The position numbers and the translations under genes were made by a program. A DNA stretch of 64,000 nucleotides. Origin: Fragilariopsis cylindrus CCMP1102 (Eukaryota; Bacillariophyta; Bacillariophyceae; Bacillariales; Bacillariaceae). The notes below the pieces were generated by a model. It had not been told where the DNA came from, made no database searches, and saw only the letters and a program-made list of their open reading frames with translations. Positions 923 to 58,226 of the stretch are shown piece by piece (position 1 is the stretch's first letter; the number at the start of each line of letters is the position of its first letter). The stretch spans positions 62,001 through 126,000 of the forward strand of contig FMBT01000394.1 in assembly GCA_900095095.1 (NCBI GenBank), in the 5' to 3' direction.

Positions 923-1260
923 GATAGGTAAATCAATTGAATGGATTAGTCCCTAGTGAGGGAGCGGGTGAGCGAGTGAGCGAGTGAATGAGATGTACGT
1001 TCTTACTATTCCAACTTTCCTATTTTTCTTTATTGTTGAGAGCGACAAACTAGAATTATGAGATCGATTTTCGATCACTTTTTGAGACGAGAAGAACACG
1101 ATTAATAAAGCTACAGCACTGTGTGTATCTAATGAACAAAGCTAAGAGGTTAGTGAGTGAATGCAAGTGATGAAGTACGACGTACGTGATGATGACAATA
1201 ATTGTATGTACGAATTTTTGTCACACTTTTGTTCTTTCATACAAGTATCACGCTAAAATA

Positions 1261-1337
1261 AAAAGAACAACACTGTCTTTTGAGATACAGAAAAAGAGCG
1301 AAAAGAACAACACTGTCTTTTGAGATACAGAAAAAGA
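1261..1337. repeat. Tandem duplication, 37-bp unit
   Basis: The 37-bp sequence beginning AAAAGAACAACACTGTC occurs perfectly at 1261-1297 and 1301-1337, separated by three bases. Confidence 0.9.
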
Positions 1338-1368
1338 CATGGATTTTTTGTACGTGCTACGTGCTCCT

Positions 1369-1566
1369 CCAGCGAACGCAAACTTAGCGTAAGATTTTAC
1401 ACGACAACTTTCAAACGATAAAAGGACGGAGATTGAGTGAAGATTAATTCGAGTCGAATGACCAATTTTACTTACTGTATTTATTAATTTCTTTTCTCTA
1501 AATACGCTTACGATTGCGTATAAAAAGTTATCAGCTAAAACCTGACACTAAGTTTGCTTTCGCTGG
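1369..1566. mobile_element. Small foldback (MITE-like) element, 198 bp
   Basis: The ends are inverted repeats of 22 bp with 20 matches. The left end starts CCAGCGAACGCAAACTTAG at 1369, and its reverse complement, with two differences, ends at 1566. The interior is AT-rich and non-coding. No clear target-site duplication is seen, so it may be an old MITE or just a foldback. Confidence 0.45.
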
Positions 1567-2067
1567 ATGAAGTATTATATCAATAATGCCTCCCATTTTC
1601 GAATTTTATCGTGTTCTTCAGAATAATACGATATTTCGCGATCAAAGATTTTGTCAGTGAGTCGAGTGAGTCGAGTGAGTCGAGTTCCGGAATGTAAAAA
1701 AAGCCAAGAACAGCGAAACAGAAAAAAGCAAAATTAAACCGACGCATTGCATACATTATTGCACACAACATTATTTCACATAACAACAATAACAACAATA
1801 GGATGACAACATACATGCGGGACCAATTCAGGATTGATACATCTACATCCTCCGTACAACGCTTGTTTCGTACGCGCTGTCGTTTGAAAATTTAGCGTGT
1901 GTAAATGCACGGAGGAAGTATTCGATTCTTCTTCGACTCATTCATTCACCAATCTTTGTTTGAGGCGCGCTGCAAAGTGAGATTGAGATTTCTGGGTTGA
2001 ATCCAGCATCACGTCCAACTCATTAGAAAAATTATGCATTCAATAGAAGGCAATGTAGTGATATGTC

Positions 2068-2432
2068 CAACTTAGCCAACACATAACAGAAATGTATGCA
2101 CGGGAATTGATTGATTCGATTGATTCCTTCGTTATACTAGTACAGTTTCCATTTGTGCAGGAAGAAAACAAGGTGAATGAGTCGAAACCATTTGAATAAA
2201 AATGAATGAAGGAATCAATCATCAAATTCGTCACGCCCCCGTGTTCATATTTTACGATTCATTAGAGTTGTGAAACAACTCTAAAATCGACCTTTGCTCT
2301 CTCATTCGTCGAAGCGATAGATAGATTGATTGATTCCCTTCATTCATTCAAGAAAATTAGAGAAATTCTTATTTAACAGGCAATCACAGAACAACTTAGC
2401 CAACACATGACAGGAATGTATGCACGGGAATT
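2068..2432. repeat. Pair of 41-bp direct repeats
   Basis: Copies at 2068-2108 and 2392-2432 (starting CAACTTAGCCAACACAT) differ at three positions. Each is followed within about 100 bp by a related GAATGAAGGAATCA...ATCAAAT segment, so the duplicated unit is longer than the core. Confidence 0.75.
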
Positions 2433-2779
2433 AACATGAATGAAGGAATCATCAAATCCCAGCCGTGCCAAATCCAGTGGTTAAGCGCTATTTGACGCCA
2501 TTGCTACTAATGCACGCGTTTTTCATTACTGTACATCGCGTTAAATAAAATAATAATATTATTACGTGTTCATATTTAACGCGCTCACGATTTAAAGAAA
2601 CTTCTCCAGTGAGAATTTTTGACAAGATCAGATTACCGATCAAAAATTAAGTTGACCACATAAAAGAATATTATCATAAAAGATAATTTGCAGAAACACA
2701 AACGCAAACGCAAACACAAAACGAGCTCATTAGCAATACAATACAACGCAACACTAAAAACTGCAACAGCATATAAGCC

Positions 2780-3787
2780 ATGTCTTCCATGATGATCGAC
2801 AACAATGCAACACCAACAACGACAATCGATTGGTCTGATCATAATAATGAAGATTCGTCAATCTTTGACCCATCGTATACATATTCAAATGACAAATACA
2901 GTTGCATAGTTGCATTTTATCATATTCATATTGTATTGAACTATATTATCTTCCTATCTGGATTAGCATGTCTAGTTACTCGATTAATTCCTGGAATATC
3001 TGGCAAATATAATTTACATTCATGGTTTGGACGAATTTATATACTAGCAATGTTATGGTCCACATCGGTTTCACTATTGATCAATAATGAAGGACTACCA
3101 ACAGCTGTACTTGTTAGTTTCATTGCAGTTATGAGTGGTCTAACTTTAGGGTGGATTCTTATAATAATATACAAACAAAATATCAATGCAGAAGCAACAC
3201 AAATTGTACAAAAAAAACTAGTTACAAAATTGAATATGAATGGGAACGAAAAAAAGAATAAAGGCAGCAATACTAATAAGGGAGAAGTCATCAACTTAGA
3301 CAAAATGATGAATGTGGCAACGTTGGAAATTGTCAACAGTAAAACCTTTGCTCAGCGTTTTTTTTCTCTCAAGGCGGCACATGGTATTCTTTTCTTTGTT
3401 TCATGGATGCAAATTGCTGGACGGATATTCAATAGTGGTGATGGTGAATTTAGTTGTCGCACATATCCAGCATTCAAACCAATATTTGACGCCAACAACA
3501 AAGAAAATAATAAACTCAAGCTTGTTCCAATACATGATCCACGTTGGGATGAAATGCCATGGTCCAATGGACCAGCTACGTGGGCATTGTTGATTATTAT
3601 GGCGAGTATCATTACGGCGATTGTTGGTGGTGCATTATTTTCATTGTTCTTTTTATGGCGTTCAAAGAAGCAAACAAAAGAACGAATAAATCAAACAGTA
3701 ATATCTATGATATCGTCTTCATTAAAAGATATTGAAGAAGAAGAAGATGTAAAAGCGAACAATAAAGACGAGAAGAACAACTTTTAA
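2780..3787 (+). CDS. Multi-pass membrane protein, DUF2306/b561-like
   Basis: The 335-residue protein has about five membrane segments: roughly residues 50-70, 80-104, 108-130, 196-215 and 262-286. His residues lie at membrane edges (HIHIVLNY, LHSWFGRIY and LKAAHGILFF). Paired membrane His residues and the NLHSWFGRIY pattern recall DUF2306-type and cytochrome b561-like proteins, where His residues can bind haem; haem binding here is inference. A charged, Lys/Asn-rich loop (residues about 135-180) and a Glu/Lys-rich C-tail are likely cytosolic. There is no clear N-terminal signal peptide. The start is the first ATG of the frame. No intron is needed. Confidence 0.65.
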   Translation: MSSMMIDNNATPTTTIDWSDHNNEDSSIFDPSYTYSNDKYSCIVAFYHIHIVLNYIIFLSGLACLVTRLIPGISGKYNLHSWFGRIYILAMLWSTSVSLLINNEGLPTAVLVSFIAVMSGLTLGWILIIIYKQNINAEATQIVQKKLVTKLNMNGNEKKNKGSNTNKGEVINLDKMMNVATLEIVNSKTFAQRFFSLKAAHGILFFVSWMQIAGRIFNSGDGEFSCRTYPAFKPIFDANNKENNKLKLVPIHDPRWDEMPWSNGPATWALLIIMASIITAIVGGALFSLFFLWRSKKQTKERINQTVISMISSSLKDIEEEEDVKANNKDEKNNF

Positions 3788-4332
3788 CAACCTCACTTCT
3801 GCCGAAGAAGAACATGAACACGTATACGCTTAAACATTAAATAGAAAAGATACCATAGACTAAAATATATATACAGTTTGCATTGGTTTGCTATATCTAG
3901 GTAAAAAAATAAAAAATATTTACGATTCGAATTTTTTAAAGTCTCTCCAAAGTTTGTTCGTACTATTTTGAAGAGTAGGACCTACAACATATCGCTCCAT
4001 GTACCCCCGAATTCAAAAAGAACGAAAGATCTAATTAGATATTTTGATTAGGATGCGCTGTTAAGCATACGATTTTTTTAACCGTAAGCTGACGCGTTGC
4101 TTTTCTGTACATATTATTATCTTCTTTTCTTCACAAACGACAGGGAATTCTTCATATTGGCAGTCCTTGTCCTATATAAATCGGTATCAACAAATGTGTG
4201 CTTATCATTCGATCGTAGGCACAATAGCAAGGCAATAATAAGAAAGAAGGACTTTTTTGAAATTGAATTATTAGATACTATAATACTGCGAGCAGGATCG
4301 TTTGTCACTACTACAACCTTATCATCAATACG
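3788..4332. other. Intergenic region
   Basis: AT-rich spacer of about 545 bp. Short ORFs on both strands overlap each other and show no domain pattern. It should carry the 3' UTR of the membrane protein and the promoter of the SDR locus. Confidence 0.5.
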
Positions 4333-5652
4333 ATGCGGTTATTTTTGTCATCGGTTCTTCTATTACTTCCTCCAGTAATAATTCTTCTACCACTTCTACT
4401 ACTACTCTTCCTAGTAGTAAGTCCAACACTTACGATACCATCATCGGCATTTATTCCGTCATCGTCGTCATCGTCGTCGTCGTCATCATCAATAAATAAA
4501 CATCACATTTTATTCTTACTGAAACAGAATAACGAGAAAGGAGTAACAATTATTAGTAGTACCAGGACGACGACTCGTAGTCATCTGACTCCTCCTTCTC
4601 CTCGAAGTAGTATTCGAATTTTGAACGCAGCAGCTGATGAATCAGAAATATCAGACAACGACAACGACGAAGATGTTGATGATGCAGATCTTATTTATGG
4701 TGAGTTATCGAATGAATTAATGCCACGTAAATTTTGGGAAACTACTAAGTTAAATTTACTTGGTAATATTATCGGACGAAGATACAACAATAACAATCCT
4801 AATCCTAACAATAACAATATGAATGATGATGGTGTATATATACCATCTATAGCATGTATGAAACAAAAAATTGTACTTATAACAGGTGGATCCTCTGGAT
4901 TAGGATTAGAATCCGCAAAACGATTAACACATTATGCTGGTGCTACTGTAATAGTAACAGCACGTACTATAGAACGTTGTGAACAGGCTGTAAAGGAAGT
5001 CAAACAGTATTGTTATGACAATGAGTCTTCTTCGTCTCTGGATAACAATCAGTTGGATAATGAGAATAATAATGTATTTGGTATACCACTTGATTTAGAA
5101 GATTTTTCATCCGTAAGAACATTCTCGAATCGATATCGTGAATGTATTATGGCTGATAATAATGAGTTGATACGTAAAATTGATGTATTAATGAATAATG
5201 CTGGTGCTGGTGGTTTCATATCCTTGCAAAAAAGTAAAGTAGATGGATATGAACGTACATTTCAATCATGTCATTTAGGACATTTTTTACTAACATCCTG
5301 TTTATATAATGAAAAATTACTCAATGATAATGGCGGTGTCGGTGGCGACTAAGGATCATCATCATCATCATGCCTTGTAATAAATGTTTCATCATTAGCA
5401 CATCAATCAGCACGTCTTGTTCATGGTAACAGCAAAGACAAATATGATGATGATTGGTTAACGTGTTGTTTCAACAACAACAACAGCACTGCTGCTACTC
5501 CTACTACTCTTGATATTATCGAAGGTGGACAACATTATAATGAATTTCAACAGAAGAAATTACTACCAAAATTTGCTACTAATTTAAAGGATCAAAAAAA
5601 ACTATGGAGGATTAGTGAAGAATTCACAAAAATGAAATTTAACATAACATAA
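4333..5652 (+). pseudogene. Plastid-targeted short-chain dehydrogenase (SDR), disrupted and internally deleted
   Basis: The N-terminus is a strong signal peptide (Leu/Val-rich, residues 1-33) followed by SSAFIPSSSSS, an ASAFAP-like motif used for diatom plastid import. The SDR core follows: glycine motif TGGSSGLGLESA, LDLEDFSSVR and NNAGAGG. An in-frame TAA at 5350-5352 ends the first frame. Downstream, in the same frame, come CLVINVSSLAHQSARLVHG (the catalytic-Ser strand) and KKLWRISEEFTKM, the usual C-terminus of RDH/WWOX-like SDRs. The YxxxK catalytic block and about 60-80 residues after it are missing between these two parts. Two independent lesions argue for a pseudogene rather than a sequencing error. 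A truncated expressed Rossmann protein is possible. Confidence 0.7.
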
Positions 5653-21096: not shown

Positions 21097-21494
21097 TACC
21101 AGTAGATATCCTAAGTGCGTACGCGCGAAGAGACACCGACTGGTTTTTTTTGTCGTTATAATAAGCGGTTTGTAAATCAAACTAGATAGCTTTACTAGCC
21201 TATCCTATTATACAGTCTTCATCAACACATTAAAATGTGTTGTTTTGTATATATACATTTTTTAATCAAATCACTAATACGCGGTTATTTGTCAACGTTA
21301 CACTTGCCTTTTTTTGAAATTAATTTCATATTTACGCAGTTTGCGCCCTGTAGAAAAGTGTACTGAGCGCGCGTACAAACAGTGACACCTAATAAAATTC
21401 TGATTTTATTTTTGAAAAAAGGCAAATGGAACATCAACAACAACGACATGATCATCTATTAAGATGCGTTCCTCCTCTATTAAGATGAGTCGTT

Positions 21495-21526
21495 TTTGAA
21501 GAACTGTCACGTGACAGGTCTTCAAA
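21495..21526. promoter_or_regulatory. 32-bp palindrome with CACGTG core upstream of the transposase
   Basis: Two 16-bp arms (TTTGAAGAACTGTCAC and its complement with one mismatch) meet at CAC|GTG. It sits about 125 bp before the transposase ATG, inside the element. A dimeric binding site for the transposase, the second protein or a host bHLH/bZIP factor is possible. Confidence 0.45.
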
Positions 21527-21649
21527 GCAATGCGATTTCAAGCTTTAGCTTGTAACCCCAGTTCTAAATCAGTTACTCAGTTACTACAATATGATTCATA
21601 ATATTATTCTTTTTATTTGAACAAAGATGGTGATTGTTAAGCTGTTATC

Positions 21650-24600
21650 ATGGTTAAAGCATCGAATAGAGCACAACAACGACGTTCATTACCTTCTTCT
21701 CGCACTACTATCAAAAGAGGGAAACAATCGGCAGCAAAACAAGCAAAGCAAAAGGTAAATAACCAACAAAAAAAGGGCATTCACTTTCCAAATGATCAAA
21801 TAGCACAAGATCATATTCAAACTATTATCATAGAAATCCTAACGAAATGGCGACAGTGCGAGCCAAAGCAGAAGAAGAATGGTGAACCACCATTCGGTTC
21901 ACTTGCTAAGCTAGTTAAACAGTATAGTAAAACACAACAATGGCTAGAGAATGGAAATAAAGTAAAAATGAAGTGGAGAAATATGTCTGATATAAATAAA
22001 AATAGAATTAACATTGCTTTGCCTTTAGTAGAATTGAATAACAACAACAACAAGACAACTGTGGCACCAACTTCACCTACGACTGTGTCAGGCAAATCGG
22101 GTCGTCCTATTGGTACCACAAATAAAGCAAAGCAAGAGTTGACAAAAAAATTCTCACAAATGAAGAATGATATAGCACTGTCATGGGTTGAAAACAAGCT
22201 ACTACCAACTGATCATACGAACAAGATGACCCTCAAGCAGCTTATTGCTAACAAACAGCACGAGTACCAATTAGATCCTGATACATATCGCGTTGCTTCC
22301 ACTACTATCTACAGTAGAATCTGTCGCGATCGATTAGAAGTAAAAGGAACTGGTATGAAGAGCCCAATGCTAGATGCAGAACCTTTAATTGTAATGTACA
22401 TAAATCAATCAACAGATTGTAATGACACAATGAATCAGAGAGAAATAATTGATTATGCCAACTCCTATGTCAGTGGCACTCCTGTGGAAGATGATGTGAT
22501 TGCATGGAAACTACGACATCAAGTTGATTTGCGAGATCGCTATATCGAACATGGTATCAAGCCTACCTCAGCCAATCTAGGCAAAGGGTGGTTCGATGGG
22601 TTTATTAGGAGATGGGGGAAGGAGGTTCAATATAAAGGGTCAAGTAATGTTGATTTTTATCGAACTGAGCACTGTACATACGAAAAGTTTGTGGAGATGT
22701 ACGACAACGTATATGGTCTGCTTGTTAAATGGGGGTATGCTGAAGTGTTAGAACAACCTTTATATTATAATGGAAATGGTGAAGTTTGTGATATAGATGA
22801 TCCTGATCAATATGGTGAACCAGTTTATCATCGATTCAAACATCCGGAATTGTTCATGGCTGCTGATGAGTGTGGAACAAATACTAACATGTCAAAAGAT
22901 AAGATGTCAGCTGGCAACAAGAAACGCTGCTCAACAAAAGGAGTTATGGCAAAGTTGCCAGCATGTACTAGTGATTGTCATTTTACGACCATGGTATGGA
23001 CGAAATTAGATGGAAATCCGGCAATTTGTTTAGTTATTATAGAAAAAGATGGAGAACTTAGTTATTCCGAATTACATGGTTTAGATGTTAATGCATTATG
23101 GATTGGTGATGATACTATGTTTAATGAAATAAAGAATATCAATAATGATCTTGATAAAGAAAAGAAAATGAAAGAGATGTTGGCTGGTAGTGTATTTTCG
23201 GTTGAGTTGCTGCAACTCAACACAGGACCAGGCAAAGTGTTTCCAGGAGGTCCTATATGTACTGTCAATGGTATTGAAATACCAACACTTGTACGGCGTT
23301 CAGCTAGCGGTGGTATCACTCCAGAAATTCTAGTGGATGTCCTACGACTATACGATGCACTAGTTCCGCGAGTACCTGGTGATCCACCTCCTGGTGCGAT
23401 CTTAGATGGGCATGGCTCGCGTCTAAGTCCTGAATTCATGAGGTATATTAACAATCGTGATGAAGAAGGGAAGGTTGTGGCTGGAGCGAATCATAAGTGG
23501 AATATTTGTCTTGGTTTGCCAAATGGTACTGCCTACTGGCAAGTTGGTGATTCCTCTGAACAGAATGGAATGTATAAGAATCTTACACGAGAAGCAAAAG
23601 AAGTTATTCGAGTTGATCAACGGATTAACTGTGAGCGCATCAAAATCAGCAGACATCATGTTCTACTTATCATGTCTAAGGTATTCGATAGGAGTTTTGG
23701 CAATGTGGAGGGTAACAAAAAAGCAATACTACAACGCGGTTGGAATCCCCTTAATCGTGGCTGTTTATCTCATCCTGAAGTTTTGAAGTCGAAGAAGGTT
23801 ACTCTATCACAACAGACTCAATCACAACAGACTCTATCACAACAGACTTTATCTCAACTGACCGTATCTGACATGAGTGAATCACAGAGTGAATCACAGA
23901 TAGCTATGGCTGCAACGAATCGAGCTGATCCTACTCGATTGGCTGGTATGAATGTGTCAGAAGGAAAAGCACAGCACTATTTAAGTGTGCTTACCACATC
24001 CACCAATCGAAATGTAGCAAGAGAAAGGCATCACCAAGAAAAGAAAAAACTAGTACAACAACAGCGACTAGACAATTCTGATCGATCGAATTTGATTGAT
24101 AAGTTCACTGGCAGACTAACTTCTGGAGGGTTGACTAGTCAAGGTCATTGGGGTCTTGGGGAAACCACACTCTCGATTGTAGAAGGAAAAACAATCGCTA
24201 TGTTAGATAAGTTGGCAAAAAAGGCTTCTAAACAGTATATTCGTGATATGAAAACATATATTAGTGGTAAAGCTGCAATGGAGAAATCTAAACATCATTA
24301 TGCTGCACATGCTGAGGGTGGTGTATTGTATGGGGTCTCAAATGGTCCTATTAGGAATAAGATTGTTAATGGTTTAAGAAAAGCAAGTCGATGGTTGTTG
24401 AATGATGATTATGTAGATCTGATTAGATATAAACAACTTGGGTGTGTGAAGCAAAAATCGAAGATACCAAACACTCTTGCAGAAAGACGAGTTGCCTGGG
24501 ATAGTATTTATTATATTATGAACGAGCCATCTCCACCAGTAAAACCAGACAATTTTATTACTGTTGTTGAAGCTAATAATGATGTGGAAGTGGAAGAAAT

Positions 24601-24769
24601 TGATATAGAAGCTTTGTCAAGGGTGAATAGTGATTTGCCAAGAACTGACGCTTCTGTTGAGCATTTTGAAGCAGCTCAAAGCTTATTTACCCTAACTATG
24701 ACTGACGAGTGTGCAGATTCGAACTATCATGGTGGTCAAGTGTGGAATACCCAAATATCGGAGATCTAG
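21650..24769 (+). CDS. Pogo-like DDE transposase (DDE_1 superfamily)
   Basis: The 1039-residue intact ORF has a basic N-terminus with an AT-hook-like GKSGRPIGTTNKAK (about residues 148-161), then a helical DNA-binding region. That region ends in NLGKGWFDGFIRRWGKE, the CENP-B/pogo HTH signature. The catalytic core follows: FMAADECGTNTN (first Asp, about 403), GAILDGHGSRLSPEF (second Asp, about 586) and YWQVGDSSEQNGMYKNL (third acidic position, about 47 residues later). This order and spacing fit a DDE/D transposase that cuts and joins the TIR ends. A SQQT/SQLT repeat and a long basic C-terminal region follow. There is no intron. It faces the second ORF tail to tail inside the same TIRs. Confidence 0.85.
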   Translation: MVKASNRAQQRRSLPSSRTTIKRGKQSAAKQAKQKVNNQQKKGIHFPNDQIAQDHIQTIIIEILTKWRQCEPKQKKNGEPPFGSLAKLVKQYSKTQQWLENGNKVKMKWRNMSDINKNRINIALPLVELNNNNNKTTVAPTSPTTVSGKSGRPIGTTNKAKQELTKKFSQMKNDIALSWVENKLLPTDHTNKMTLKQLIANKQHEYQLDPDTYRVASTTIYSRICRDRLEVKGTGMKSPMLDAEPLIVMYINQSTDCNDTMNQREIIDYANSYVSGTPVEDDVIAWKLRHQVDLRDRYIEHGIKPTSANLGKGWFDGFIRRWGKEVQYKGSSNVDFYRTEHCTYEKFVEMYDNVYGLLVKWGYAEVLEQPLYYNGNGEVCDIDDPDQYGEPVYHRFKHPELFMAADECGTNTNMSKDKMSAGNKKRCSTKGVMAKLPACTSDCHFTTMVWTKLDGNPAICLVIIEKDGELSYSELHGLDVNALWIGDDTMFNEIKNINNDLDKEKKMKEMLAGSVFSVELLQLNTGPGKVFPGGPICTVNGIEIPTLVRRSASGGITPEILVDVLRLYDALVPRVPGDPPPGAILDGHGSRLSPEFMRYINNRDEEGKVVAGANHKWNICLGLPNGTAYWQVGDSSEQNGMYKNLTREAKEVIRVDQRINCERIKISRHHVLLIMSKVFDRSFGNVEGNKKAILQRGWNPLNRGCLSHPEVLKSKKVTLSQQTQSQQTLSQQTLSQLTVSDMSESQSESQIAMAATNRADPTRLAGMNVSEGKAQHYLSVLTTSTNRNVARERHHQEKKKLVQQQRLDNSDRSNLIDKFTGRLTSGGLTSQGHWGLGETTLSIVEGKTIAMLDKLAKKASKQYIRDMKTYISGKAAMEKSKHHYAAHAEGGVLYGVSNGPIRNKIVNGLRKASRWLLNDDYVDLIRYKQLGCVKQKSKIPNTLAERRVAWDSIYYIMNEPSPPVKPDNFITVVEANNDVEVEEIDIEALSRVNSDLPRTDASVEHFEAAQSLFTLTMTDECADSNYHGGQVWNTQISEI

Positions 24770-25140
24770 TTCTGTAGAATAATTATAGAAGTAACGAAAT
24801 TATAAGTAGTAATAGTAGTAGTACTGTATAGGATATATTTACTATAGTGTTTGTAGTTAGAATTCGATCGAAACAAGACCGTACCTCTATTGCTTTTTAT
24901 TCTACACCCAGAGAGAGCCAATGTGTGATTGAAAAGAAAATCCTATTATCAATCTTAACTATTTTTTTTTTAAAGTAGGCACTACTACTGTCAAGTAAGT
25001 TGGTGATTGAGTTGTTGAGTTTGATATATAATATTTTTTTTAATTTAGTTATTCGATTGGACTCGATTGATAATAACTAATACATACATGCATTCAAGTC
25101 TTCATTTCGTTATTACATAGGACTATCACCAATAGTTAGT
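24770..25140. other. Spacer between convergent transposon ORFs
   Basis: 371 bp of AT-rich sequence with poly-T tracts (about 24962 and 25036); probably the two 3' UTRs. No gene. Confidence 0.5.
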
Positions 25141-26109
25141 TTAAATAGTTAGTTTAAATGATCCATTAACAAAGTACTTGTCATCAAGTGGAAAGAACGC
25201 ATCCATTGATTCTTCATGGAATACAAACCGGGCAGGGTTGTTGTTGAGAAAATGGTTGCTACAAAGCTTTCCTTCAGCCCGTAAATGCTTGGGAGCAGGG
25301 AATAACTCTGTGAGGAGTTGCTTTAAACATTTGCCTGGTGGTTGTTTATCTTCTGACTTGATTAACATTTGATGGAATAGATGATAGTCAATTCTATAGT
25401 ATCGATTATTAAGCATGTCCGCCCAACCCCGAGCGTATCGACCATCCTTTTTAATCATACCAAACCTTTTGGCAATGACAAGTGAGTATGTGTTCATAGT
25501 TTTTTCAGTACAAGCAATATTACCACATTGAGTACAAGGTCTATTTTCCATGTACTCAGTAACTTGTACCAAGATAGTACCATATAAGTTCCAAGTATCA
25601 TGATCCAAGGGAGCACCAATACAAATATCTAAGTTCTTGTACAAGTGACCGTCGAACGCGTCAAGAGCTTCAACGTCATTGTACTTGATTGGATTCTTGT
25701 TAGAAGCAACAGGTGGTGTAGTTGCCTTCCTCTTCTTGTCATTGACAAAGCCAACTACCATACCAACCGCTTCGTACTCTGTTAGTGTCGTTACCGTCTT
25801 TACCGAAGCGTCGTCATAGAAGATAGTGGAAGGAATAGGAAAGTTACCAGCTACATAAGAAGAAGAAGAAGAAGATACAGTCAGTTCTGTTTCTGGGGTT
25901 TTTTGTCCTGGAATGTAATCTTTAACACCAGATTGAACAGAAGCAACAGAAGGTGGAGGACTATCGACATAACTCCATGAAGCCCACCCTTCAGTTAGTT
26001 GATTAAGTCCTTTGGATTCCTCCATGATTGATTGTTGTTGTTGTTGTATAATCGATTTTATTTTATGATAAGAAAAAGAGAACTGGAAATACAGCTTTTC
26101 CTTCCTCAA
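25141..26109 (-). CDS. Second transposon-encoded protein, unknown function
   Basis: The 322-residue ORF has an internal Met (MEESKGLNQ) at 26026 that may be the real start, giving 294 residues. No known family is recognised. The N-terminal third is Ser/Thr/Pro-rich. The central part has a Cys cluster, NRPCTQCGNIACTEK, compatible with a small metal-binding site, followed by a globular, aromatic-rich C-terminal half (ARGWADMLNNRYYRIDYHLF, PAPKHLRAEGKLCSNHFLNN). It lies within the same terminal repeats as the transposase and converges on it. It is intact, which suggests it contributes to transposition or regulation, as accessory proteins do in Mutator or CACTA elements; that role is inference. 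Confidence 0.65.
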   Translation of the reverse strand: MRKEKLYFQFSFSYHKIKSIIQQQQQSIMEESKGLNQLTEGWASWSYVDSPPPSVASVQSGVKDYIPGQKTPETELTVSSSSSSYVAGNFPIPSTIFYDDASVKTVTTLTEYEAVGMVVGFVNDKKRKATTPPVASNKNPIKYNDVEALDAFDGHLYKNLDICIGAPLDHDTWNLYGTILVQVTEYMENRPCTQCGNIACTEKTMNTYSLVIAKRFGMIKKDGRYARGWADMLNNRYYRIDYHLFHQMLIKSEDKQPPGKCLKQLLTELFPAPKHLRAEGKLCSNHFLNNNPARFVFHEESMDAFFPLDDKYFVNGSFKLTI

Positions 26110-26977
26110 TTCTTGTCCATTTCACATCTAACCAACGCTATACCTGTAGACCATGACCTTCCGGTGGGTTCTCCACCATTTTTCGTAACTTTCTACCACT
26201 CAATCATCTTTGAATCTACTCAAATATTGATTGATATAGGAGATGAAGTATGTGCAATAAGGAAATTTTGGTTGAAAGCGTATCAACGATAGGCTGTTAA
26301 TGACGATAGGAGATGGAAAAATAATTTAAATGGTGGATTCTGATTGGCTAATAGCGCATGGAGTGGCGCGCAAAATATTTTTTGGTGTCTCTCCGGATTT
26401 TTTGAATAATTCAACGCCAAAAAAGAACCAAGGTAGTAACCTATCTATACAGACATGAATATCGAATATAAACTTTATTCCTTCTATAGCATGCTTCGTT
26501 TATGTGTTATCTCTAATTGTATCTAATATCATAGAGTGATTGGAGCATGTTAACGGATGCTTAATAGAGATGGCACATTCGGTGTCTCCTCTTGTACGCA
26601 GTTAGCGCGCGGGTACGCACTTAGAATATCTACTGGTAGGAGAACTTTATAATTTATGTGCACAATCTTCGCGATGCAATCTTCGCTTGTATCGCACTCC
26701 ATGCCTCAATTAACGGTATTTTGCATTATTAAATTATTGTATTCCAATATATCGTATGTGTCGTTAAGGTATTTTGGAATAAAATGGGAGAACACTCGTG
26801 AAAACGCGTGAAAGCAAGGTCAAGTAATAGTCACTTAATTACTGAACAACAATAAACTTGTCTACAGTACAGTAGCATCAGAGCATTATCAGGTATCAGC
26901 CTTATCATATTGGCATCAGCATAATCATCGGCATTAGTTGAATTGGTATACAGTATCAAAATTCGTCGTTATTCATC
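26110..26977. other. Right transposon end and intergenic spacer
   Basis: 26110-26638 is the non-coding right end of the transposon, with GGTGTCTC motifs at about 26382 and 26581 and the terminal repeat at 26613-26638. 26639-26977 is host spacer and the likely promoter of the glycosyltransferase gene. Confidence 0.55.
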
Positions 26978-28339
26978 ATGTCGTCATTGTTGAGTAGCAG
27001 TAGTGGCAGTAGTGGCAGTAGAAAGAATCATCGATTGAATAATAACAATAGGATTAGTAAGACGAGTAACAGTAATAGTCACAATAGCAGCAGCAGTAGT
27101 AGTAGTAATAGCAGTAATCAAAATATATGGTTGATGCTGGCTGGTTGTATCATCTTCGTATTTGTTACCAGTTATCATAATTTTAAAGACGGTTCCAACT
27201 TTGATTATAAAGACTCTGCGTTAAGTAGTTTTGGTGTGCCACGACATGATGAATCACAATCACAACCACAATCGCAATCACAATCGCAACCACAACCACT
27301 ATTACAATTACAATTGAGTGAATTGACTCGGAGTCATATTCAAAATATTATATGTCCCGAACCACTTGTCCCAGTATATGATAGGATCATCCATGATAAT
27401 AATAACAATAGTAATAATAACAGTAGTGAACAAGAACAAGAACAATTAATTCCAAAATTCATTCATCTATCCATGAAAACACGTTGTATATCGAAAGATA
27501 TGATGGATATTGTAGATATATGGAAGAACCAATTTCCATCGTATAATGTTTATTTTCATGATGATAGTGCAGTAGATGCCTTATTTTATGATTCTGGTAA
27601 TTATTGGTCGGATATATTTCCACAATTACAACAACTCATGACGTCCTGTGTCAAATATGGTAGTGCCATGAAAATTGATATCTGGCGGGTTCTAATTTTA
27701 TATCGATATGGTGGTATTTATTCTGATATTGATAATGCACCTGGTCCAAAACTAACCGAGTTCACCATTGAAAAGAATGCTTCTGCTTTTTTTTTAAGTG
27801 ATGGTTGGGACCGACCAAGTCATTGGTTACATGGTATGGAACCCAATCATCCGATTTCCTTTCATACCATGTTAGTGATATTCGAAAATTTATTAAAATT
27901 AACAAATGTCTCCAAAGTACGACTGGTACACGTGACAGGACCCGAAGCATTACGACAGGGTTATACCACTGCCATATCCACTGGTGAGAATGATCGTGGT
28001 GAGGAACCATTTAAACAAATCTTTAATTTAGGTATACATCGAGTCAGAAAACCATACCAAGAGAAACTTGTTTATAAATTTGCATATAGGGATTATGTAT
28101 ATCAAAATAACAATGAGAAAGTACCATATAGTAGTATTATGAATAGTAATAGTAATGATAATAGTAATACAACAACAACAACAATGATTACCAAAAAAGA
28201 ACGAATTCAAATCGAAATGAATATATCACATTGGACAAAAATTGTGTACAAGGCTGTAGATATTCCAACTGGTATGTGCATTGATTATATATATGAGAAT
28301 GCTTTAAAACATCAACTCGAACGCCAATATGCAAAATAG
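26978..28339 (+). CDS. GT32-like glycosyltransferase (DXD sugar-binding family), type II membrane protein
   Basis: The 453-residue protein has a Ser/Asn-rich cytosolic tail, one membrane anchor (about residues 51-65, IWLMLAGCIIFVFVTSYH), a Gln/Ser-rich stem and a catalytic domain. Diagnostic blocks are PKFIHLSMKTRCISKDM, YGSAMKIDIWRVLILYRYGG and IYSDIDNAPGP, where DID is the DXD metal/nucleotide-sugar motif, then VTGPEALRQGY. This matches the Gly_transf_sug (OCH1/GT32) pattern, in which a hexose is transferred from a nucleotide sugar to a glycan in the Golgi. Donor and acceptor cannot be told from sequence. No intron. The short CTD insert (NSNSNDNSNTTTTTM) is low complexity. Confidence 0.8.
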   Translation: MSSLLSSSSGSSGSRKNHRLNNNNRISKTSNSNSHNSSSSSSSNSSNQNIWLMLAGCIIFVFVTSYHNFKDGSNFDYKDSALSSFGVPRHDESQSQPQSQSQSQPQPLLQLQLSELTRSHIQNIICPEPLVPVYDRIIHDNNNNSNNNSSEQEQEQLIPKFIHLSMKTRCISKDMMDIVDIWKNQFPSYNVYFHDDSAVDALFYDSGNYWSDIFPQLQQLMTSCVKYGSAMKIDIWRVLILYRYGGIYSDIDNAPGPKLTEFTIEKNASAFFLSDGWDRPSHWLHGMEPNHPISFHTMLVIFENLLKLTNVSKVRLVHVTGPEALRQGYTTAISTGENDRGEEPFKQIFNLGIHRVRKPYQEKLVYKFAYRDYVYQNNNEKVPYSSIMNSNSNDNSNTTTTTMITKKERIQIEMNISHWTKIVYKAVDIPTGMCIDYIYENALKHQLERQYAK

Positions 28340-56197: not shown

Positions 56198-58226
56198 ATG
56201 AAGATTTCTTCTACCATTTCTTTATTTGTCCTTATCTTATTGGCACCTATTACTGGTATCAGTGCATATGGATGGAATTCTTCCAAGGCAATGGCCGATG
56301 AAATTGAATTATCAGCAAACATCAACAAGGCAACCGTCTCCACTCGAACATTGAAAAAAATTATTAGAGAGGAACGTCGTTTTGTTTTATTTAATTCACG
56401 TCGTTTGAATGGAGAATGTCTTTCGATTTGTGAAGCTGAAGCTGAAGCTGGAACACAAAATCCTATTAATGAACCGACAGATAAACCATCGATTTCTCCA
56501 ACGAAATCGCCAACGGATCGTCCATCAAAGAATCCTACGAAATCACCGACAGACACACCATCGGTTACACCTACGAAATCACCGACAGACAAACCATCGG
56601 TTTCTCCAACGGTTACACCTACGAAATCACCGACAGACAAACCATCGATTTCTCCAACGAAATCTCCAACAGCTTCTTCTACAAAATCACCGACAGACAA
56701 ACCTTCGGTTACGCCTACGACATCACCGAGTTGCAAACCAGTTTGTGACGATCAACAGGAAAATTTAGGTGATGGATTCTCTGCCGCGACTGGTGTTGGG
56801 GGGTATTCGTCAGAACAATGTTATCCTCCTATCGTGCAACTTGATGCAAATAATTTAGCAGGAATTGATGATTCAGTTGCAGTTTTTGTTGGTGGATCAT
56901 ATTATGGTCGTCGCGCAGCGGAAGTTGAAGGTAACATGGTTGTGTTGGGTGATCTATCCGTTGAATCAAATGGTACGTATACCTGCTTTATATAGTATTG
57001 CTTCCTTTATTCTTTGCTCATCTCGTTCTTTCTTACTCTACCTATGTCGATATCACGATATGATACACCAACTCACACTCTCTTTGTTACGTTTCTTTTA
57101 TTCAGGTCCTGGTAATTTCGTTTCTGTCGGTGTTGGTACACACGTCCTACCTACAAGTGGTGGAGAATGTATCAAAGTAGGTGGATCAATTAGTGCTGCA
57201 CGTGATATCCAAGTCTTCAATCAAGTCCCATCAATGTATTGTGATATTGTTTATAAGGGATCTGCTACCAACAACAATCGATGGAAAACAAATGGTAGTG
57301 TACGACGTGATGCTAATTTAGATTTAAGTGAATATGAAAAAATGAAAACTGTATTAGCTGAAAAATCACAGTATTGGTCGACATTGCCATCTACCGGTCA
57401 GGCGATCTACGAAAGTTGGGGTAATCCAACAGGACAAACAACATACGAGTGTGGTTCTGAGGATGTTCAAGTATTTAACATTTTACCAAATGAACGTGAA
57501 AAAATTGAAGGTGTACATACTATTTATTTTAGTAAATCTTGTTTAGATAAAACAATTCTTATTAATGTTCATGGTGATGGCAATCGTAACATTGATGCAG
57601 CTGCAATGCATTATGAAGGGAAGATGGGATTCGGACCCGGTGGATTTCCAACCTGTATCACATCATCTTTGCTATGGAATTTCCCAGATGCTGATTCTGT
57701 TGATATTGGTAATGGTAGAACATCCGAATTTCATGGTTCTGTTTTGATAACTGGTGATATGACACTTTCTACGTCAGGTCAATCAGGTCGTACTATGGTA
57801 TTAGGTGATATTATTCATGATAGTGATTCAGGTAGTGAATTCCATTCGTACGAATTCAATCCACCAACATCATTACCAAATCCTGCTTGTGTCGACGAGT
57901 CGACACAAGCTTTGACTGAGTCCTCAGTCAAAGCGTTGGAAGCTCCAACGAAATACGAGTCGACACAAGCTTTGACTGAGTCCTCAGTCAAACCGTTGGT
58001 TTCTTCAACGAAATCTCCAACAAAATCTCCAACGAAATCTCCGACAACGGCATCGTCATCTTCTGCTCCCAGTAAATGCACGGCAATTCCACAAAATAGA
58101 TTACCGAGTGGATCTTGGAAAACTACTAATAGCAATTGTAATAAATGTAAACCACCCAATAACAAAAAATGGTGGCCATGTAATTTGAATCCACCTATCT
58201 GTGAAGGAAATTGCATCTTCAAATAA
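56198..58226 (+). CDS. Secreted choice-of-anchor-A surface protein with PT-rich stalk
   Basis: Exons 56198-56972 and 57106-58226; the 133-bp intron has GTACGT...TTCAG and joins N-G-P-G-N. A signal peptide (residues about 1-22, ending GISA) is followed by a diatom-type SPTKSPTDKPSVSPT repeat stalk, then a choice-of-anchor-A-like domain. That domain reads GFSAATGVGGYSSEQC, NLAGIDDSVAVFVGGSY, VEGNMVVLGDLSV, PTSGGECIKVGGSI, FHGSVLITGDMTLSTSGQSG and GRTMVLGDIIH. After a duplicated ESTQALTESSVK segment and more PTKSPT, a Cys/Trp-rich C-terminus follows (NCNKCKPPNNKKWWPCNLNPP). In bacteria this domain occurs in adhesins and ice-binding-type surface proteins; here a cell-wall or extracellular role is inference. 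The ATG at 56198 directly precedes the signal peptide. Confidence 0.75.

Follow-up and report, generated by a model that had tools for sequence, protein, structure and literature searches.

A recently active, TA-targeting two-gene transposon of pogo-like design with a putative DDE/D transposase in the diatom Fragilariopsis cylindrus

Introduction

Transposons that carry second genes include Harbinger, CACTA, and MULE elements. Among autonomous IS630-Tc1-mariner elements, a single ORF is usual (PMC8533490). The pogo superfamily (Tigger, Passer, pogoR, Lemi, Mover, and Fot) is described in a published survey as elements of 1.2-5.2 kb that have short ends, duplicate a TA in most families, and contain one or two ORFs (PMC7386202). 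The transposases have 300-977 aa, with an HTH_Tnp_Tc5 DNA-binding domain and a catalytic triad of variable spacing (reported as DD29-59D); the first-pass annotation of the locus studied here, which spoke of one protein of 300-600 residues, understates this range. The same source reports pogo from Stramenopiles and lists Mover as confined to red algae and Chromista and without a DNA-binding domain detectable by hmmscan (PMC7386202). In ciliates, the Tec/TBE elements of the Tc1/mariner group have multiple ORFs, one of those of Tec being on the complementary strand; by description, they have a DD34E transposase, three ORFs, and ends that are very long in Tec and telomere-tipped in TBE (PMC7325037). 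In KolobokP, a DDD/E transposase is reported together with a second protein encoded downstream on the opposite strand, and Kolobok lineages include accessory proteins (PMC9587614).

In this work, we describe an element of Fragilariopsis cylindrus CCMP1102 that works like a pogo/Tc1-mariner transposon. It shares with pogo the TA duplication, the short ends, and a number of ORFs within the described range, with Tec/TBE the presence of more than one ORF, and with KolobokP the second protein on the opposite strand; it may also share the pogo triad. Unlike the described pogo elements, it has a first ORF (ORF1) that is unrecognized by the DDE_1 profile and a conserved convergent second gene (ORF2) without a library match, and it slightly exceeds the maxima of the survey in both kilobases and residues. 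Unlike Tec/TBE, it has two ORFs, short ends, and a putative triad spaced as DD47D rather than DD34E. The element is best read as a TA-targeting DDE transposon with two genes and a pogo-like design that was active recently and represents a deep lineage that is not modeled in the libraries searched.

Structure of the Element and Its Copies

The window, which is the whole stretch of 64,000 nt analyzed (contig FMBT01000394.1, positions 62,001-126,000), contains a 5,542-bp element at 21097-26638 (Table 1). The assignment to a diatom agrees with 27 matches to the silicon transporter PF03842 in the genome (exon pieces counted singly, all above the cut-off), compared with a match below the cut-off in one of 14 control genomes. 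The ends form an inverted repeat (21097-21127 and 26608-26638) of 31 nt including the TA, in which 29 of 31 positions (94%) are complementary and the two arms are separated by 5,480 nt. Each end opens with TACCAG. The near-perfect inverted ends bounded by TA, the uninterrupted ORF of 1039 residues, and the second intact convergent ORF of the first-pass annotation are all confirmed. The subterminal motif GAGACACC is a putative transposase-binding repeat, and the related GTGACACC occurs at 21382.

Table 1. Features of the element in the window (aa, residue numbers in ORF1).
Feature	Position	Strand	Basis
Left TA (target site duplication)	21097..21098	.	One dinucleotide (CA) at the paralogous unoccupied site on C724
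Left terminal inverted repeat	21099..21127	+	End comparison and pattern search
Subterminal GAGACACC motif, left	21130..21137	+	Motif search
ORF1, putative transposase, 1039 aa, uninterrupted	21650..24769	+	Open frame, alignment of relatives, dN/dS
ORF1 GRP	aa 151-153		Conserved in alignment
ORF1 HTH_Tnp_Tc5-like stretch	aa 302-323		Sub-threshold match
ORF1 putative catalytic residues	D406, D586, D634		Motif assignment
ORF2, 294 aa from likely ATG	25141..26025	-	Convergent to ORF1; open in relatives, dN/dS
Right subterminal GAGACACC motif, inner	26384..26391	- (inverted)	Motif search
Right subterminal GAGACACC motif, outer	26581..26588	- (inverted)	Motif search
Right terminal inverted repeat	26608..26636	-	End comparison and pattern search
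Right TA (target site duplication)	26637..26638	.	Flank comparison across elements; C724 site

The genome search proposed in the first-pass annotation was conducted on the 67.9-Mb assembly (818 contigs) with the terminal 26 nt, TACCAGTAGATAWYCTAAGTGCGTAC, and up to three mismatches allowed. It gave 14 matches (12 exact and two with one mismatch), whereas the reversed pattern used as a control gave none, which rules out a chance inverted repeat. A match with one mismatch on C464 (386513-386538) lies outside every element examined.

For copies of the whole element, 20 regions around the matches of a genome search were taken for inspection of ends. Of these 20, 16 have one or more TACCAG-type ends, and L023, L024, L027, and L028 have none. 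Ten elements have both ends, with TA flanks in all ten. Four are longer than 5 kb, namely, the window copy (C343, 5542 bp), C490 (5531 bp), C184 (5410 bp), and C139 (5393 bp), and the shorter ones are C253 (3002 bp), C88 (1218 bp), C613 (1187 bp), C299 (796 bp), C640 (541 bp), and C401 (540 bp). C253 is a copy with an internal deletion; the five shortest (540-1218 bp) retain their ends and look like non-autonomous derivatives. The ends of the ten elements belong to three families (TACCAGTAGATA; TACCAGTAAAAAACTAAA; and TACCAGTTAATAATATAAC together with a near variant of it). A fourth end type was found at the lone end of C315. C357 departs from the TACCAG reading at its left end.

The further copies sought by the first-pass annotation include a second full-length one on C490, which differs from the window copy over 5.5 kb by two substitutions and four indels (1, 1, 6, and 3 nt). 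This search rules out a single decayed copy. The ORF1 of C490 is broken by a single-base length difference in an A-run, such that the window copy is the only one in its subfamily seen with both genes intact. Two other loci, C514 and C377, have identical bases beyond the right end, as far as these are shown, and therefore probably represent two haplotypes or a duplication rather than separate insertions.

The gene adjoining the element in the window (26978-28339) encodes a Gly_transf_sug domain. DNA similar to this gene is present on C312, C709, C724, C534, and C91, and C724 also has the paralogous unoccupied site listed in Table 1. Elsewhere in the window, an open frame at 56865-58226 encodes a putative ice-binding-like adhesive domain (PF20597, E = 1.1e-16).

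Target Site and Empty Sites

The sequence outside the TA varies among the ten elements, and the two flanks of the elements have the TA alone in common. Kolobok elements duplicate TTAA, and membership in Kolobok is ruled out on this target site. The bases adjoining the target TA in the ten sites are G or C in 18 of 20 cases, compared with 39% around all TAs of the window (P = 3e-6, from a post hoc comparison).

Empty sites were searched for by comparing the joined flanks of the ten elements with the genome, and seven matches span the junction (C134, C147, C421, C391, C648, C34, and C724). Six of these were inspected, namely, C134, C147, C421, C391, C648, and C724. The strongest empty site is C134, the unoccupied counterpart of C490, which has one TA with more than 30 identical bases on each side and is identical to the C490 flanks in 324 of 332 ungapped columns. 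For the window copy, C724 is a diverged paralogous unoccupied site with 25 identical bases, CA in place of TA, and then eight identical bases. A single-TA empty site, as called for by the first-pass annotation, is therefore available for C490, and that of the window copy has a changed base. The junction has a 5-nt gap in C147 (for C613) and in C421 (for C253), an 18-nt gap together with divergence in C391 (for C139), and 27 extra bases that start like a transposon end in C648 (for C401); with gaps or extra bases at these four, two of the six inspected sites are clean, one of them (C724) with the changed base. At C648 (150287-150630, L064), the extra bases together with those preceding them form TACCAGTT, a sequence resembling what imprecise excision would leave of a transposon end. 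A match to the flanks of C640 on C561 falls into two pieces.

The near-identical copy on C490, the common ends, and the empty sites bear out the earlier description of a young, unusually large, TA-duplicating two-gene transposon, and what had been called possibly active can be stated as recently active.

ORF1

The three acidic motifs named in the first-pass annotation, ADECG (D406), LDGHGS (D586), and VGDSS (D634), are present and invariant in the four ORF1 sequences aligned, and their assignment as catalytic is an interpretation of these motifs. The spacing between D586 and D634 corresponds to DD47D. Between the window and C184 proteins, blocks with at least 85% identity over 20 residues are found at aa 17-41, 403-457 (with ADECG and D406), 541-565 (RRSASGGITPE), 617-647 (LPNGTAYWQVGDSSEQNG, with D634), 681-715, 858-881, and 898-935. 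LDGHGSR around D586 is invariant yet lies outside these blocks. The block at aa 17-41 and those after residue 858 coincide with unusually similar DNA, such that both constraint and exchange may account for them.

Purifying selection on ORF1 is strong. Based on the open pieces of six copies (window, C514, C454, C253, C184, and C139; 15 pairs), dN/dS is 0.10-0.15 in all seven close pairs (window, C514, C454, and C253 with one another, and C184 with C139) and 0.14-0.33 in the eight distant pairs, for which dS is near saturation (1.2-2.8).

For the CENP-B-like helix-turn-helix reported in the first-pass annotation, what we found is a weak HTH_Tnp_Tc5 match in the window ORF1 (14.1 bits, E = 0.046), which is below the cut-off of 22.2 bits; the C184 stretch scanned has no match to this profile. 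A part of an 820-aa open frame on C770 (L043, 325-2784) is 41% identical to ORF1 aa 140-232. This frame also has a helicase-associated domain (PF03457, E = 3.9e-14), and a DNA-binding domain common to the transposon and a host gene is possible.

ORF2 and the Two-Gene Plan

The ORF2 frame is open over 25141-26109 (minus strand) from a TTG, and the alignment of relatives places the likely ATG at 26025. Six of ten loci were compared, the others being C490, which is near-identical, and the shorter pieces at C253, C377, and C501. The six aligned copies have in common TEGWASWSYV near the N-terminus, KRKA in the middle of the protein, and PCxxCxxxxC. ORF2 is under purifying selection that is weaker than that on ORF1. 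Among five type-B copies, dN/dS is 0.41-0.77 in 10 of 10 pairs, and the bootstrap interval is below 1 in seven of these pairs, which are not independent of one another. Comparisons of the window ORF2 with the others gave dN/dS of 0.26-0.51 at dS of 1.3-2.3, a distance at which these ratios carry little meaning.

It is improbable that ORF2 is host sequence captured by the element, or a frame open by chance, rather than a working transposon gene. Such an origin would fit the low identity of its C-terminal part (25-29% when the window type is compared with the other one) and a dN/dS higher than that of ORF1, but the frame is open in all six copies compared, the N-terminus and CxxCxxxxC are common to the copies, and the dN/dS below 1 in every type-B pair, together with nine to 30 stops in each of the other five frames of the type-B copies, rules out a chance frame. 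Among the ORF2 matches found in the genome, the window-type C-terminus is present only in the window and C490 copies. Judging from the common TEGWASWSYV, KRKA, and PCxxCxxxxC motifs and from the transposons with second genes named above (Kolobok lineages, TBE and Tec, Harbinger, CACTA, and MULE), ORF2 is most likely a nuclear accessory protein with an end-binding or regulatory role.

The same two-gene plan is found in the C184 element, in which both frames are open. Its ORF1 (992 aa) and ORF2 (323 aa) are 54 and 37% identical to those of the window, respectively, with one terminal residue omitted from each alignment. In C139, a near relative of C184, a stop interrupts ORF1. The DNA identity between the window and C184 elements is uneven, being 71% up to element position 250, 87-88% at 251-750, 62-70% at 1251-3000, 84-90% at 3001-3500, and 90-91% at 4751-5500, with no detectable similarity at 3501-4750. 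Also, C514, C546, and C377 (the last by pieces) combine a right end of the window type with an ORF2 of the other type. The simplest explanation for this mosaic pattern is exchange between subfamilies.

Affiliation

Neither ORF1 nor ORF2 has a match above the cut-off in Pfam or NCBIfam. Two ORF1 proteins, those of the window and of C184, were scanned with the DDE_1 profile and gave no match; the positive control L056 scored 83.7 bits. A genome-wide DDE_1 search with E up to 10, in which scoring was confined to the 10 candidates from a loose first look, yielded no element copy among its 10 matches. The pogo/Tc1-mariner membership given in the first-pass annotation is thus not established, as the predicted catalytic domain fails this profile test.

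The ORF1 core was also compared with four DDE_1 proteins of the genome against shuffles, and L056, L058, and L059 were no better than the shuffles. For L057, hhalign gave a score of 26.4 compared with at most 25.0 in 60 shuffles (above 60 of 60), at a probability of only 5%. Pairwise scoring under two gap settings found two and 11 of 400 shuffles as good, and the z of 2.9 compares with 1.9 for the best of 12 decoys (from a set of 13 proteins, one of which was excluded as a piece of an ORF1 copy). BLASTP between ORF1 and L057 was not significant (E = 0.45), and hhalign found nothing between ORF1 and L056, a clear pogo protein. The computed alignments of L057 place D586 alone in register, with VRSSPNGSMT...LLDSHVSR of L057 aligned to VRRSASGGIT...ILDGHGSR of ORF1, whereas D406 and D634 are out of register. 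The motifs of L056 can be aligned by eye around D406 and D634, without support from a computed alignment. Homology of ORF1 to DDE_1 is suggestive rather than demonstrated, with a similarity too weak to align for a DDE_1 phylogeny. L057 itself (C297:267100-268000) has an open frame of 1339 aa, in which DDE_1 scores 33 bits; together with a relative on C354 that is 66-67% identical, it represents another large pogo-like family in this genome.

Searches of PDB sequences gave chance-level matches only, and no sequence-related solved structure was found for ORF1. No relative of ORF1 was found in viral, prokaryote genome, phage, and plasmid collections, nor one of ORF2 in a viral contig collection. 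These are not collections of eukaryote genomes, such that this absence says little about other diatoms. Our literature search found no description of this element, which may still exist elsewhere.

We consider it an even chance that the element truly belongs to the pogo superfamily, as a very diverged member that has gained a second gene and long insertions within its DDE domain. This would account for the TA duplication with ends below 40 bp, the DD47D spacing within the reported DD29-59D, the presence of two ORFs where one or two are reported for pogo (PMC7386202), the sub-threshold HTH_Tnp_Tc5 score, and the D586 region in register with L057. It is more difficult to reconcile with a DDE_1 profile that misses ORF1 yet passes at E 0.001 at eight other loci in the same genome, with the weak shuffle statistics for L057, with a C184 stretch devoid of an HTH_Tnp_Tc5 match, and with 5.5 kb and 1039 aa compared with the reported 5.2 kb and 977 aa (PMC7386202). 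That TA-targeting DDE transposons of this two-gene kind form an undescribed superfamily of their own is a more doubtful proposition. The lack of library matches above the cut-off for both proteins, the two-gene plan common to two families with ORF1 only 54% identical, the CCAG termini, and the TA targets flanked by G or C would be in line with it, but the weak HTH_Tnp_Tc5 and DDE_1-like signals speak against it, and with a search confined to this genome and to collections of viruses, prokaryotes, phages, and plasmids, the absence of relatives elsewhere may stem from sampling.

Proposed Mechanism and Implications

The explanation that we prefer for the whole, with a probability of about 0.85, is a cut-and-paste, TA-inserting DDE/D transposon with ORF1 as its transposase and ORF2 as a second gene. 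According to this model, ORF1 would be a large DDE/D transposase carried by the element itself, with N-terminal helical domains that may bind the 29-nt ends and probably also the subterminal GAGACACC repeats. A predicted RNase H-like core with D406, D586, and D634 would excise the element and insert it at a TA, which thereby becomes duplicated, and the preferred target would be a TA flanked by G or C on either side. ORF2 is a genuine gene of the element as well, and its product most likely aids the binding or regulation of the ends in the nucleus.

A broader interpretation, which we regard as tentative and on balance unlikely, is an undescribed eukaryotic superfamily of TA-targeting DDE transposons defined by a transposase of ~1000 residues together with a convergent second gene on which the life cycle depends, with subfamilies that swap ORF1, ORF2, and end modules by recombination. 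Under the preferred explanation of a cut-and-paste transposon with two genes, the element may be a branch that is not covered by the protein-family libraries searched, and diatom genomes would hold recently mobile elements that are unrecognized by Pfam and NCBIfam profiles. Because autonomous IS630-Tc1-mariner elements usually have one ORF, a TA-targeting element whose second gene is maintained by selection would allow the function of such a gene to be tested. The element is also a candidate for a diatom-native basis of gene-tagging tools.
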